From a virus: 50,429 bases of DNA. The notes under the pieces were generated by a model. That model saw only the letters and a program-made list of their open reading frames with translations, ran no database searches and had not been told where the DNA came from. This document shows positions 23,335-36,428 of the stretch, piece by piece (position 1 is the stretch's first letter; the number at the start of each line of letters is the position of its first letter). Location of the stretch: positions 1 to 50,429 of IMG/VR virus record IMGVR_UViG_3300021356_000031. The stretch is one strand, 5' to 3'. The translations under genes and the position numbers were made by a program.

Positions 23335-23653
23335 AGTTCAGAAGACGATCTTCATACCATCTTGCTTTTCTAAGATCCTCAACAGGTTTTCCTTTATACC
23401 GAAAGCGCCAGCGATACTTTAAAGAATTACCACGTAGATAACCAATGTACTCATCGTGCGTAAGCATACCTTTAATAGCATCAATACACTCCATTCCACT
23501 ATTGTTATAATGCTCTGGTCGGTTAACTACATCGTAGCTCTTAGCCATAGCCTCCTCAGAGAACACTGGATGCTCGTTAAGTGCATCGTCCTCTTCTACT
23601 GTCTTAAATGACATCTTGTTCCACTCCTCTGGTGTTATGTTATCAATGCTCAT
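23300..23653 (-). CDS. DUF3310 protein, related to T7 gp1.7-type nucleotide kinase (117 aa)
   Basis: The C-terminal half is a standard DUF3310 domain: DVVNRPEHYNNSGMECIDAI, then GYLRGNSLKYRWRFRYKGKP, then EDLRKARWYEDRL. The N-terminal 40 residues are acidic and unassigned. In T7 the protein with this domain (gp1.7) has nucleotide kinase activity, so a nucleotide-metabolism role near nrdA is reasonable, but activity cannot be inferred from the domain alone. It overlaps endonuclease I by 4 bases. Confidence 0.8.
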   Translation of the reverse strand: MSIDNITPEEWNKMSFKTVEEDDALNEHPVFSEEAMAKSYDVVNRPEHYNNSGMECIDAIKGMLTHDEYIGYLRGNSLKYRWRFRYKGKPVEDLRKARWYEDRLLNYELEHPSEQLR

Positions 23654-24162
23654 GGCATCTCCACTTTTAATTTATCGTTACGCTTCTTATACTCTTCAGT
23701 TTCTCTAGCTTTAACATCAATCCAATTATCAGGTATGCTGTCTTCACTAAACCATCTGAAACCATTAGTTCCTGCCCACTCAGCGTGAGATCTTTTTGTT
23801 CCGTCTTTACGGCGCTTTGCTCCCGGCATTGGGGCTGAAGGATTGGCAAATAAAAAAACAAGCTCTGTATCTTTAGGTAAAATTTTCTTTACCCAAATAT
23901 ATTTATTATATTCTTGAAAGTCCCAGAACCTACCTTTAGATTCAAGCAATATTTTCTTACCGTCAATCACACGAACAAAGTCTGGTTCATAGGTGTGTTT
24001 AATAATGTAATCAACTTTATCAGTATGGTGGCTCCAATCTTTTAAAATTGACTCATGAAGGACGGCTTCCCAAATAGAATCATATTTGTCACCGTTGGGA
24101 GCTAGAAGTTTGGGAGGGCGGGGTACTCTTTTTTTACGTGCGCCAGATTTAACGTGCGCCAT
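23650..24162 (-). CDS. T7 gp3-like endonuclease I (Holliday junction resolvase, 170 aa)
   Basis: The pattern fits phage endonuclease I: DSIWEAVLHESILKDW, then KHTYEPDFVRVIDG, then ILLESKGRF, then a C-terminal block NGFRWFSEDSIPDNWI. Counting from the ATG at 24162 (MAHVKSGARKK), the metal-binding residues are Glu32, Asp61, Glu74 and Lys76, matching T7 Glu20, Asp55, Glu65 and Lys67. An AAGAAG site supports this start over 24204. The enzyme resolves branched DNA before packaging and helps degrade host DNA. Confidence 0.88.
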   Translation of the reverse strand: MAHVKSGARKKRVPRPPKLLAPNGDKYDSIWEAVLHESILKDWSHHTDKVDYIIKHTYEPDFVRVIDGKKILLESKGRFWDFQEYNKYIWVKKILPKDTELVFLFANPSAPMPGAKRRKDGTKRSHAEWAGTNGFRWFSEDSIPDNWIDVKARETEEYKKRNDKLKVEMP

Positions 24163-24445
24163 GAATATACTTCTTATAATTATTATTAAAGATATTGAAA
24201 TCAATATCGTCTATCTTGTAACCATCCTTAATCATTTTTTTGAGGACAGTCACTACCCACTTCTTTGTGTAGATACTAAGATATAAAGTCTTGTTACTGT
24301 AAATATATTCTTGTTGTGCTAGGAATTGATCTACATTGTTTATATTTATCTTCTCTTTTTCTTCGTCTGGCACAAGCGTATGCAGCCAGCTACAAAGTAT
24401 TTCAAGACTTTTAGATCTAATGCGCTTCATTATTTTACTATTCAA
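24149..24445 (-). CDS. Unknown protein (98 aa), probable TTG start
   Basis: I use the TTG at 24445 because AGAGGAAG lies about 7 bases upstream and it overlaps the previous stop. An ATG at 24430 (MKRIRSKSLEIL) has no ribosome site. The protein is helical and mixed charge, with an Asn/Tyr-rich end (NIFNNNYKKYIHGAR). No family recognised. It overlaps endonuclease I by 14 bases. Confidence 0.55.
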   Translation of the reverse strand: MNSKIMKRIRSKSLEILCSWLHTLVPDEEKEKININNVDQFLAQQEYIYSNKTLYLSIYTKKWVVTVLKKMIKDGYKIDDIDFNIFNNNYKKYIHGAR

Positions 24446-33159: not shown

Positions 33160-33209
33160 CCCTAGAAAAACTAGGAAGGTCGTAAGACCTCCTTCCTAGT
33201 TTTCTAGGG
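33160..33209 (-). promoter_or_regulatory. Bulged hairpin, family copy A (5' leader of DUF932 gene)
   Basis: Long hairpin. On the minus strand the tip is GGTC-TTAC-GACC with a 3-nt GGA bulge on the 5' side, below which CTAGGAA pairs with TTCCTAG. The distal stem CCCTAGAAAA pairs with TTTTCTAGGG, leaving one unpaired base. It shares 15 tip bases with copy B. The predicted transcript starts at about its first base. Confidence 0.8.
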
Positions 33210-33212
33210 AGA

Positions 33213-33241
33213 ATCTTAAAGTATTTTAACTGCGCTGTCAA
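33213..33241 (-). promoter_or_regulatory. Sigma70-like promoter for the DUF932 transcript
   Basis: Minus strand: TTGACA (33241-33236), 17-bp spacer, TAAGAT (33218-33213; 4 of 6). Start near 33206, at the base of the bulged hairpin, so the mRNA would begin with that hairpin. The -35 box overlaps the stop codon of the upstream gene. Confidence 0.6.
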
Positions 33242-34211: not shown

Positions 34212-34398
34212 CAAAGGCTTCCTCCCATTCCTGAGTTGTAATGCCTGACACTATAAATTCACGCTGGGCATCAGTCAAGTTTGGCATCGCATCTTGAATT
34301 AACATGCCACCCTGCCAGTTACTTAACTGTTCAGCAGTGATCGGCATATCAACAATGTGGCGAACACCAGTTAACATAGATTTTTTTTCGATCAGCAC
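34204..34398 (-). CDS. Small unknown early protein (64 aa), GTG start
   Basis: AGGAG lies 6 bases before a GTG at 34398 (MLIEKKSMLTGVRHIVDMPI). Helical C-terminal half (NLTDAQREFIVSGITTQEWE). Its leader contains bulged hairpin copy B. Overlaps the zinc-ribbon gene. Not recognised. Confidence 0.6.
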   Translation of the reverse strand: MLIEKKSMLTGVRHIVDMPITAEQLSNWQGGMLIQDAMPNLTDAQREFIVSGITTQEWEEAFGE

Positions 34399-34412
34399 AC
34401 TTTTCTCCTGTT

Positions 34413-34463
34413 CCCTTTTTAATCTTTAGAGGTCGTAAGACCTCCTCTAAAGATTAAAAAGGG
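34413..34463 (-). promoter_or_regulatory. Bulged hairpin, family copy B
   Basis: Minus strand: CCCTTTTTAATCTTTAGA-GGA-GGTC-TTAC-GACC, then the exact complement of the lower stem, so 18 plus 4 pairs with a 3-nt GGA bulge. The tip matches copy A while the stem sequence is unrelated but fully paired. Its 5' strand includes the T-tract of the terminator at 34456-34476. Confidence 0.85.
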
Positions 34464-34476
34464 AGCCGAAGCTCCC
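34456..34476 (-). terminator. Intrinsic terminator, UUCG loop, shared with hairpin B
   Basis: Minus strand GGGAGC-TTCG-GCTCCC (34476-34461) followed by TTTTT. It ends the transcript of the 81-aa gene. The terminator T-run is also part of the lower stem of hairpin copy B, so the two structures compete. Confidence 0.8.
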
Positions 34477-34501
34477 TTGTAGGTTTAATTAAGACTTAAA
34501 G

Positions 34502-34885: not shown

Positions 34886-35260
34886 TTAGATCATTCCAAG
34901 GTCAGCAGCGGTAGCGATTCGAGGGGCCGAAGAAGTTTTAAAGTTCTTGGACTGCTTTGGATTGGCAGTAATTTTAACTTCTTTGTTAGACTTTAAGTCT
35001 TCAGTCTTCAGAACTTTAACATACTTGGCAGCAGCCGAAGTCTTACCGTTGATTTTCTTGACGGAGAATAATTTATTTATGTCCCCAGCCAAAGGCTGAC
35101 CATCGTGAACGGCCTTGATCGTCGCACCAAAGCGAGCCGTGAGTTTAGCAAACTCAAATCGCTTGATGTCATTTTCACCAATATATTTGTAAGCCAAAGT
35201 CTTGGCACAAGCATATACAGCTTTATCAGTAGCAGGTTTAGTCAAATCGTATTTAGCCAT
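34886..35260 (-). CDS. First early gene, basic unknown protein (124 aa)
   Basis: First gene of the leftward arm. GGGA lies upstream of its ATG, and a leader of about 0.7 kb separates it from the promoter. Basic protein with a helical N-terminus (KAVYACAKTLAYKYIGENDI, FEFAKLTARFGATIKAVHDG) and a Lys/Ser/Thr-rich tail. No family recognised. The charge and first position suit a nucleic-acid-binding early regulator, and it is the natural candidate to bind the leader hairpins; that is inference. A terminator follows directly. Confidence 0.65.
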   Translation of the reverse strand: MAKYDLTKPATDKAVYACAKTLAYKYIGENDIKRFEFAKLTARFGATIKAVHDGQPLAGDINKLFSVKKINGKTSAAAKYVKVLKTEDLKSNKEVKITANPKQSKNFKTSSAPRIATAADLGMI

Positions 35261-35312
35261 AATCGTTTTCCCGATTGTGTAATTTTTCGTCGAGCCGCTG
35301 TCGGCCCTTCCT

Positions 35313-35383
35313 AGTTTTGACTATCTATAAAATTTAAAGAAGTCGTAAGACTTCTTCTTTAAATTTTATAGATAGTCAAAACT
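35313..35383 (-). promoter_or_regulatory. Bulged hairpin, family copy C (first early gene leader)
   Basis: Minus strand tip AAGTC-TTAC-GACTT with a 3-nt AAG bulge on the 5' side and a long AT-rich lower stem that pairs throughout. Same architecture as copies A and B with a partly changed tip (GGTC to AGTC, compensated on the other arm). Confidence 0.8.
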
Positions 35384-35716
35384 TCTCAGCTAGTCCCTTC
35401 AAAACCTTAAAAGGTTTTGAAGGGACTAGCTGGATCGTAAAAGACCCTTTGGGTCTTTTAAATTTGGGAGTCCTTAGCTCCTCTTAGGAGGAGCTAGATG
35501 GCTGTGAAGACTTGCCAGCTAATTAGTTTTCAAATTCTTGAAAACTAAGAAAAACTTTGAAGTTTAAAGTAAACTTCAAAGACTAAAAAGACTTCTGTTT
35601 ACTTTGTAAACTAGAAGTCTTCAAAGTTTTCTGGAGGTCAAACCTCTAAAGTCTTCTTAGACTTTAGAGTTTTGGGAGGTCGCACTTAAAAGTCTTCAAA
35701 GACTTTTAAGAATGCG
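35313..35716. repeat. Dense array of nine distinct inverted repeats
   Basis: Successive hairpins, with arm length in bp: 35313-35383 (32, 3-nt bulge), 35387-35432 (22), 35438-35460 (10), 35475-35496 (9), 35523-35548 (11), 35555-35581 (12), 35588-35621 (15, one bulge), 35644-35669 (11) and 35681-35716 (16, 2-nt bulge). Loops are 2-5 nt. About three quarters of the 404 bases are paired. Stem sequences differ, though AAGTCTT/AAGACTT recurs. Confidence 0.92.
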
Positions 35717-35830
35717 CGGGAAGGTTAGATAGTATCTGTAGTTTTTCTTAGATCTTTAGAGGGCTGGGCAGGTGGCCACACCCCCCACCTACTATATATA
35801 CTAATTCGTATACATTTTAAGCAAAAAGGA

Positions 35831-35922
35831 GTGTCAACCAGTTTAGGCGGGTCTTTAAAGTCCTAACTGTACCCCATATGAGCCAAAAGTTGTGTTTACC
35901 AGTTTGGGCGGGTCTTCAAAGT
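35831..35922. repeat. 31-bp imperfect direct repeat (2 copies, 61-bp period)
   Basis: 35831-35861 and 35892-35922 match at 27 of 31 bases, sharing ACCAGTTT, GGCGGGTCTT and AAAGT. They lie just inside the predicted leftward transcript. They could be operator or replication iterons, or RNA elements in the leader. Confidence 0.75.
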
Positions 35923-35972
35923 ACTTTAAAGTGGGAGGTATATATAGATATAGCCCCGGTGGGTCTATGAAT

Positions 35973-36001
35973 ATTATAGAGATTATTTTACGATTTGTCA
36001 A
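35973..36001 (-). promoter_or_regulatory. Perfect consensus sigma70 promoter, leftward early
   Basis: Minus strand: TTGACA (36001-35996), 17-bp spacer, TATAAT (35978-35973). Predicted start near 35966. It drives the leader RNA and the whole early arm. Confidence 0.88.
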
Positions 36002-36019
36002 GAAAAAACTTGACAAATC
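35992..36019. promoter_or_regulatory. 11-bp dyad spanning both -35 boxes
   Basis: GATTTGTCAAG (35992-36002), six A residues, CTTGACAAATC (36009-36019). Each arm holds the -35 box of one of two divergent promoters, so a protein bound here would affect both. Confidence 0.85.
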
Positions 36020-36038
36020 TGTAAACTACCTATATAAT
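36010..36038 (+). promoter_or_regulatory. Perfect consensus sigma70 promoter, rightward
   Basis: TTGACA (36010-36015), 17-bp spacer, TATAAT (36033-36038). Only 6 bases separate the -10 box from the terS ATG at 36045, so transcripts should start at or next to the start codon. Confidence 0.88.
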
Positions 36039-36044
36039 AAGAGC

Positions 36045-36428
36045 ATGAAAAAAGAATTGACAACAAAACAACAGTCCTTTTTAAACAACTTGGTTGAAAC
36101 AGGAGGTGATCCTAGACTAGCAGCCGAACTAGCTGGCTATGCTCCTAATACTCATTGGCAAGTTACAAAAGCTTTAAAGAATGAGATTATTGATATGGCC
36201 TCTAATATTTTGGCTCAATCTGCACCCAAAGCTGCCATGAAGCTTGTGCAAGTTATGGAATCTGATTCGCCTACACCGCAAGCTAATGTAAAGCTTCAAG
36301 CGGCACAGACTATCTTAGATAGGATAGGTTTAGGTAAAGCAGATAAATTAGATGTGAACCACAAAGTTGAAGGAGGTATTTTTTTACTACCCGCTAAAGA
36401 AGAGGTAGTAATAGATGTTAAGGCGTAG
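36045..36428 (+). CDS. terS: Terminase small subunit (127 aa), probably leaderless
   Basis: The frame is open back to 35892, but the promoter lies inside that extension, so I start at ATG 36045 (MKKELTTKQQSFLNNLVETG). An N-terminal helix-turn-helix region with TTKQQSFLNNL and GDPRLAAELAGY is typical of phage small terminases (DNA recognition at the pac or cos site). A helical oligomerisation part and a C-terminal beta segment (VEGGIFLLPAKEEVVIDV) follow. TerL lies two genes downstream. Confidence 0.8.
   Translation: MKKELTTKQQSFLNNLVETGGDPRLAAELAGYAPNTHWQVTKALKNEIIDMASNILAQSAPKAAMKLVQVMESDSPTPQANVKLQAAQTILDRIGLGKADKLDVNHKVEGGIFLLPAKEEVVIDVKA

Follow-up and report, generated by a model that had tools for sequence, protein, structure and literature searches.

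The early leader of this phage carries a real structured element made up of nine consecutive hairpins, previously undescribed as far as the searched literature shows. The array was found in the window, by which we mean the whole 50,429-nucleotide stretch of DNA analysed, between the leftward early promoter and the first early gene. Its parts have known relatives, namely the hairpins of early phage leaders and hairpins shaped by template switching. As to its role, we give an even chance to the array acting in cis as part of the leftward early mRNA, in its structured 5′ untranslated leader.

Genome and Early Leader

The record is a 50.4 kb virus sequence from an uncultured marine phage, with rightward structural genes at both ends and a leftward early/replication block running from 35.3 to ~19 kb. 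In the TerL comparison, the nearest isolates are the pelagiphages HTVC103P, 104P, and 115P (65–67% identity), with HMO-2011-type phages being more distant (about 45–49%). The phage encodes a T7-like replisome (family A polymerase, primase/helicase, and gp2.5-like SSB) and a protein matching the endonuclease family phrog_945 (23653–24204), whose motifs presumably resemble those of T7 endonuclease I, a cruciform-cutting enzyme; the gene sits in a phage rich in perfect palindromes.

The start of the early block is organized as follows.

35973–36001, minus strand: leftward early sigma-70 promoter TTGACA-17-TATAAT, 12/12 match, assigned from sequence
35992–36019, no strand: conserved inverted repeat with 11 bp arms and 6 nt between them, spanning both divergent −35 boxes
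35261–35972, minus strand: untranslated early leader of about 700 nt, between the promoter and gene 1
34886–35260, minus strand: first early gene (gene 1), 124 aa, without a known family; every full-length relative found to carry this gene also has the array

The perfection of the leftward promoter, claimed in a first-pass annotation of this DNA, stands, but the promoter is located ~260 bp upstream of the array and does not adjoin it. An equally perfect divergent rightward promoter is found at 36010–36038; its TATAAT ends 7 nt ahead of the terminase small-subunit ATG (36033–36045), so that this mRNA may be leaderless. The inverted repeat across the two promoters is kept in relatives, with arms of up to 17 bp.

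A leader of similar length occurs both in relatives with the array and in relatives without it. Just downstream of the leftward −10 box, at 35940–35966, there is a box like TATAGACCYRCCGGGG, common to array-bearing and array-lacking relatives and loosely present in HTVC115P, which could fold into a hairpin at the very start of the leader. Within the 5′ half lie two 45-bp direct repeats (35820–35925), 82% identical and each with a CTTTAAAG-type word. Unpaired bases of the leader, in the window as in relatives, are rich in C and poor in G, and early genes tend to the opposite.

The gene 1 product gave only Pfam matches below the cut-off, and its AlphaFold model (mean pLDDT 70) had no significant match in PDB or BFVD; no connection of gene 1 to the hairpins was obtained from either the Pfam profiles or the model comparison.

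Structure of the Nine-Hairpin Array

The nine hairpins occupy 35313–35710 and cover 307 of its 398 bases, about 77%. The number of hairpins and the coverage of about three quarters given in the first-pass annotation are thereby borne out, with the boundary drawn at 35710 instead of 35716. From the promoter side, the hairpins are as follows.

35685–35710, minus strand: H1, 12 bp
35639–35674, minus strand: H2, 15 bp and one mismatch; loop AAGA, which is TCTT (inverted) in L012 and L019
35590–35619, minus strand: H3, 13 bp, one base bulged; no variation in the left arm or the loop, the loop always in the same orientation
35555–35581, minus strand: H4, 12 bp; the stem is the same in nine relatives, and the hypervariable loop occurs in inverted forms (GAA/TTC, CTT/AAG)
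35523–35548, minus strand: H5, 11–12 bp; compensatory changes
35475–35496, minus strand: H6, 9 bp; CUAA loop constant, with compensatory changes in L017, L040, and L041
35438–35460, minus strand: H7, 10 bp; loop AAA/TTT inverted among relatives
35387–35432, minus strand: H8, 22 bp; two-sided change at 12 pairs
35313–35383, minus strand: H9 (class II), 30 bp; apex AAG-AAGUCUUACGACUU without variation, two-sided change at 6 pairs

Seven of the nine hairpins have at least 10 perfect pairs, the others being H6, with its 9 bp, and H3, with its bulged base. The description of the hairpins as near-perfect is thus retained, but the loop range of 2–5 nt proposed with it does not extend to the longest hairpin, whose arms are 30 bp long and whose apex comprises 11 nt.

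Folding of the minus-strand RNA 35261–35966 gave a minimum free energy of −269.2 kcal/mol against −160.4 ± 6.1 kcal/mol for shuffled sequences (z = −17.8), in agreement with the expectation of the annotation; the plus strand of the leader folds with z = −11.5. The leaders of relatives were folded against 12 shuffles each, and their z values are therefore rough. A genome-wide scan of the window and four relatives placed perfect hairpins almost only in the leader and at a few early-operon sites. In 231 other viral contigs (1.9 Mb), the maximum outside the phage group was 5 such hairpins per 450 bp, compared with 8–9 here.

The recurrence of AAGTCTT/AAGACTT, noticed earlier, was found again. More broadly, the leader shows a ~20-fold enrichment of the octamer class CTYYRRAG (its 712 bp hold 10 of the 38 genome-wide copies, with 0.54 expected).

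Searched against Rfam 15, the leader had no match at the gathering score, nor was there a tRNA or tmRNA call, which agrees with the view of a structured non-coding early leader unlike listed RNA families. Sub-threshold Rfam matches were rejected as apparent miRNA-type artefacts of perfect hairpins. Our literature search on hairpin arrays in early phage regions found no description of one, and the paper on HMO-2011-type phages does not mention hairpins, promoters, or non-coding elements.

Distribution among Relatives

Relatives were collected with gene 1 (124 aa) as the query, giving 20 loci, and with the TerL gene, giving 80 loci, partly on the same contigs; loci are designated by L numbers. 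All gene 1 loci with a full leader carry the array, although only three long hairpins remain of it in L021, and H1–H9 follow in identical order in 12 distinct close relatives. Arrays with other stems are present in L040, L041, L053, L073, L076, L081, L086, L094, and L100.

Absence of inverted repeats in relatives with the same flanking genes had been named as evidence against the array. The outcome is mixed: all full-length relatives with the same first gene have it, while L033–L038 and HTVC115P do not. Both the former (TerL ~90% identical, other first genes) and the isolate HTVC115P (TerL 66%) have a long leader of similar kind with no perfect hairpins. On the TerL tree, the presence of the array requires at least 4–5 gains or losses, which is consistent with early-module exchange or with gain and loss and means that the array is dispensable in some lineages.

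CTYYARAG octamers remain abundant in the leaders of L033, L036, and L043 despite the lack of perfect hairpins there; they resemble halves of the hairpin words left without a partner. Another early region, that of L094, contains two identical 45-nt hairpins, AGCTCTTATTAACTCTCAAGTTTCTTGAGAGAGTTAATAAGAGCT, at 1848–1892 and 2257–2301 (counted leftward from the TerL start).

Template Switching and Base-Pair Covariation

In nine aligned relatives, the 129 pairs of the array are almost completely maintained (99.0% of 1,161 pair cells paired), with two-sided change at 21 pairs and one-sided change at only 1. The number of paired cells and the covariation score exceed those of all shuffled and slid controls by far. 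Over 12 relatives, there are 1,388 Watson–Crick cells, one G-T (G-U), and no A-C. The strand test, which compares G-U with A-C mismatches in these 12 relatives, gave no strand signal, both being nearly absent. As pairing is equally perfect on both strands and without G-U, covariation cannot separate RNA from DNA. By manual count, about half of the new pair types in the nine-relative alignment are transversions, and such changes do not pass through a G-U step.

Comparisons of close pairs of relatives are more direct. Over 435 nt, L017 and L019 differ solely in AAGA → TCTT, an exact inversion of the H2 loop. Between L010 and L016, the H4 loop changes from GAA to TTC, with two substitutions, and between L010 and L011 there are two double C-G → A-T changes and five substitutions. 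An exact loop inversion with unchanged stems is also seen in the pair L010/L012, and loop inversions occur in about nine hairpins across the clades.

Template switching causes homogenisation of arms, compensatory changes, and loop inversion (PMC8794818, PMC8604942). The double changes and exact loop inversions observed here are footprints of template switching in DNA replication. Perfect pairing is thus maintained at the DNA level, and covariation alone is no proof of an RNA role. The same result modifies the earlier suggestion that the hairpins descend by duplication: they do share short words (CTYYRRAG, CTAAGA loops), but the stems evolve by template switching and are not copies of one repeat.

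An assembly artefact as the source of the inversions was considered and judged unlikely, because the inverted hairpins, with arms of 10–16 bp, span 23–36 nt, below the usual sequencing read length, and because inverted forms recur across lineages: one is common to L007 and L008, and another is found in the separate lineages L012 and L019.

The array resembles the published template-switch hairpins and inverted-repeat spacer inversions (PMC8794818, PMC8604942) in arm homogenisation, double changes without wobble, and exact inversions. The published events are scattered in rRNA, miRNA, or yeast genes, whereas here they are recurrent in a single phage leader, in nine hairpins of which some loops are free to flip and others are fixed.

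Probable Selection on the Array

Variation in the stems (0.099) is half that in the spacers (0.194). The loops of H9, H6, and H3 are invariant, and most other loops flip or drift. Divergence of the array is about that of neighbouring genes, lower than that of the 5′ half of the leader, and several-fold lower than that of the third codon positions of gene 1; these figures are descriptive, since the compared genome pairs share branches and are not independent tests. Between the window and L003, for example, the array differs by 3.6% and gene 1 at 30 of 125 third positions, and between L007 and L008 there are 3 differences in 436 positions of the array and 185 in 2,836 of the surrounding locus. 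The array changes several-fold more slowly than neighbouring third codon positions and is therefore probably functional.

Class II Hairpins and Their Apex

H9, the gene-proximal hairpin, belongs to a second class of hairpins, in which long diverging stems carry the same apex, a tandem 3–4 nt purine-rich repeat followed by GUCUUACGAC. In H9, the apex GUCUUACGAC is invariant and never inverted. The class II apex occurs 2–3 times per genome in the clade, always on the early sense strand. The hairpins lie near a promoter or terminator, upstream of genes, in the 5′ leaders of three early units. Downstream of gene 1, the relevant elements of the window are the following.

34459–34478, minus strand: intrinsic terminator AAGGGAGC-UUCG-GCUCCCUU-UUU, downstream of the second gene and sharing its 3′ arm with the next hairpin
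34412–34464, minus strand: second class II hairpin (21 bp), located immediately before the gene that starts at 34398 and with AGG-AGGUCUUACGACC as its apex
33213–33241, minus strand: promoter TTGACA-17-TAAGAT, in the same place in relatives
33160–33209, minus strand: third class II hairpin, apex AGG-AGGUCUUACGACC, in the leader of the DUF932 gene, assigned from sequence

The third hairpin would form the extreme 5′ end of the transcript predicted from the promoter at 33241–33213.

A related design is seen in L053, with UCUACGA as the apex. Scans of viral contigs for the class II apex gave mostly chance 14-mers among the matches listed, and among these matches the long-stem form with the purine repeat was confined to this phage group. 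Early hairpins of other clades (L076, L081, L086) carry another conserved apex, UUACGUAGUGA, which gives the impression of a separate recognition sequence for each clade.

The class II apex keeps one orientation in genomes where the loops of other hairpins invert, which suggests that it is read strand-specifically, most simply as early RNA, although class II loops are longer than those of class I and a lower inversion rate may account in part for the absence of inverted forms.

Comparison with Known Systems

The early RNase III hairpins of phage T7, R0.3–R1.3, are single irregular hairpins that are not known to have an invariant apex or to form an array of perfect stems. The present phage is similar to T7 in having early-transcript hairpins in the leader and between genes, as well as a T7-like replication module; within the leftward block, sequence predicts hairpins between early genes, as at T7-type RNase III sites.

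The lambdoid nut/boxB sites and the put sites of HK022 also place hairpins in the early leader, between promoter and first gene, and have a fixed apex on a variable stem in several early units. Unlike these, the leader described here has eight further hairpins. No N-like protein was recognised among the early proteins scanned.

TIGR-Tas arrays (PMC12045711) are likewise tandem, variable, palindromic stem-loops in virus-type genomes. The Nop-domain Tas protein (PF01798) is absent from the window and six relatives, with control genomes positive, and a TIGR-Tas guide array was rejected on this ground. TIGR arrays have two spacers of 8–12 nt, flanked by box C/D, between their stems; by inspection, the spacers of the present array are irregular in length, most loops have 2–4 nt, and no constant dual-spacer pattern was seen.

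A phage RNA that activates CBASS is also reported to be structured and to come from near the terminase genes (PMC10686824). Relative to those genes, the present leader is upstream and on the opposite strand, and the likeness is one of position and structure.

Proposed Role of the Array and Alternatives

The observed structure, conservation, template-switch evolution, and distribution of class II hairpins form the basis of the model we favour, in which the array acts in cis within the early mRNA; among the roles listed in the first-pass annotation, an RNA element in the early mRNA fits best. Host RNA polymerase would start at the perfect leftward promoter, and an untranslated RNA of ~700 nt would be made first, its second half folding into nine independent hairpins before gene 1 is reached.

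Two classes of hairpin would then contribute differently. Class I clearly comprises H1, H2, H4, H5, H7, and H8, with H3 and H6 being similar but having fixed loops. In this class, the stem would matter more than its sequence, with template switching in replication copying arm onto arm and sometimes flipping the loop. Such stems may keep the long untranslated RNA folded in cis and shield it from ribonucleases, Rho, or mispairing. In class II, the long stem would display the invariant, orientation-fixed apex GUCUUACGAC and the tandem purine repeat in three early units, where a candidate sequence-specific RNA-binding protein or processing nuclease may read it and co-regulate the early mRNAs.

A DNA-level element is possible, though on the unlikely side: the region would be an origin or recombination region whose hairpins act as cruciforms or in single-stranded DNA, e.g., in loading the T7-like replisome. 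Pairing that is perfect on both strands without G-U and the hairpin events at the DNA level speak for it, as do the two 45-bp direct repeats of the leader and the encoded family A polymerase, primase/helicase, gp2.5-like SSB, and phrog_945 endonuclease match. The GC skew changes sign at the array (~35 kb), but the change coincides with that of the coding strand, so that GC skew is no test of the origin idea. Sister lineages and HTVC115P do without the array, and class II hairpins, fixed in orientation, follow early transcription units and not one locus.

We regard as doubtful the proposal that the leader accumulates early as a trans-acting non-coding RNA and serves as a dsRNA-like decoy, with RNase III, a host RNA-binding protein, or a defence sensor as its target. 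The perfect promoter, the very stable perfect stems, and the drift of sequence with structure kept are in its favour, and a defence cyclase is reported to sense structured phage RNAs elsewhere (PMC10686824); however, there is no conserved terminator between the array and gene 1, and thus no discrete RNA is indicated. Similarly improbable is the broadest version, a new phage RNA element in which a template-switch-perfected multi-hairpin leader would work in trans, drawing off a host RNA-binding or defence protein as a dsRNA-like sink or decoy, combined with a three-site class II regulon and a new phage RNA-binding protein.

An attenuator based on Rho or pausing, in which C-rich, G-poor unpaired stretches would be Rho targets opened or closed by the hairpins, has a low probability in our estimate. 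Unpaired leader bases in nearly all clades are typically C ~0.25 and G ~0.08, the bias being most extreme in some hairpin-less leaders (L043, L044, L101), and the intrinsic terminator shares an arm with a class II hairpin; G depletion in unpaired RNA is, however, a general effect.

Finally, an origin as a neutral mutational by-product, with template switching building and perfecting hairpins in a spacer that has no selected function, is unlikely and the least credible reading, for although its footprints are explicit and arrays come and go, change in the array is slower than in the 5′ half of the leader and several-fold slower than at the third codon positions of gene 1, the number and order of hairpins are kept across 12 relatives, and perfect hairpins are concentrated genome-wide at early 5′ leaders.

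Taken together, the leader provides a natural case of strong base-pair covariation arising at the DNA level, with double changes, almost no wobble, and flipping loops. Since covariation of this kind usually counts as proof of selection on RNA, the system offers a clean test of the extent to which template switching can imitate it. The orientation-fixed class II hairpins are, in turn, a concrete candidate for an early-gene regulon with a putative binder.
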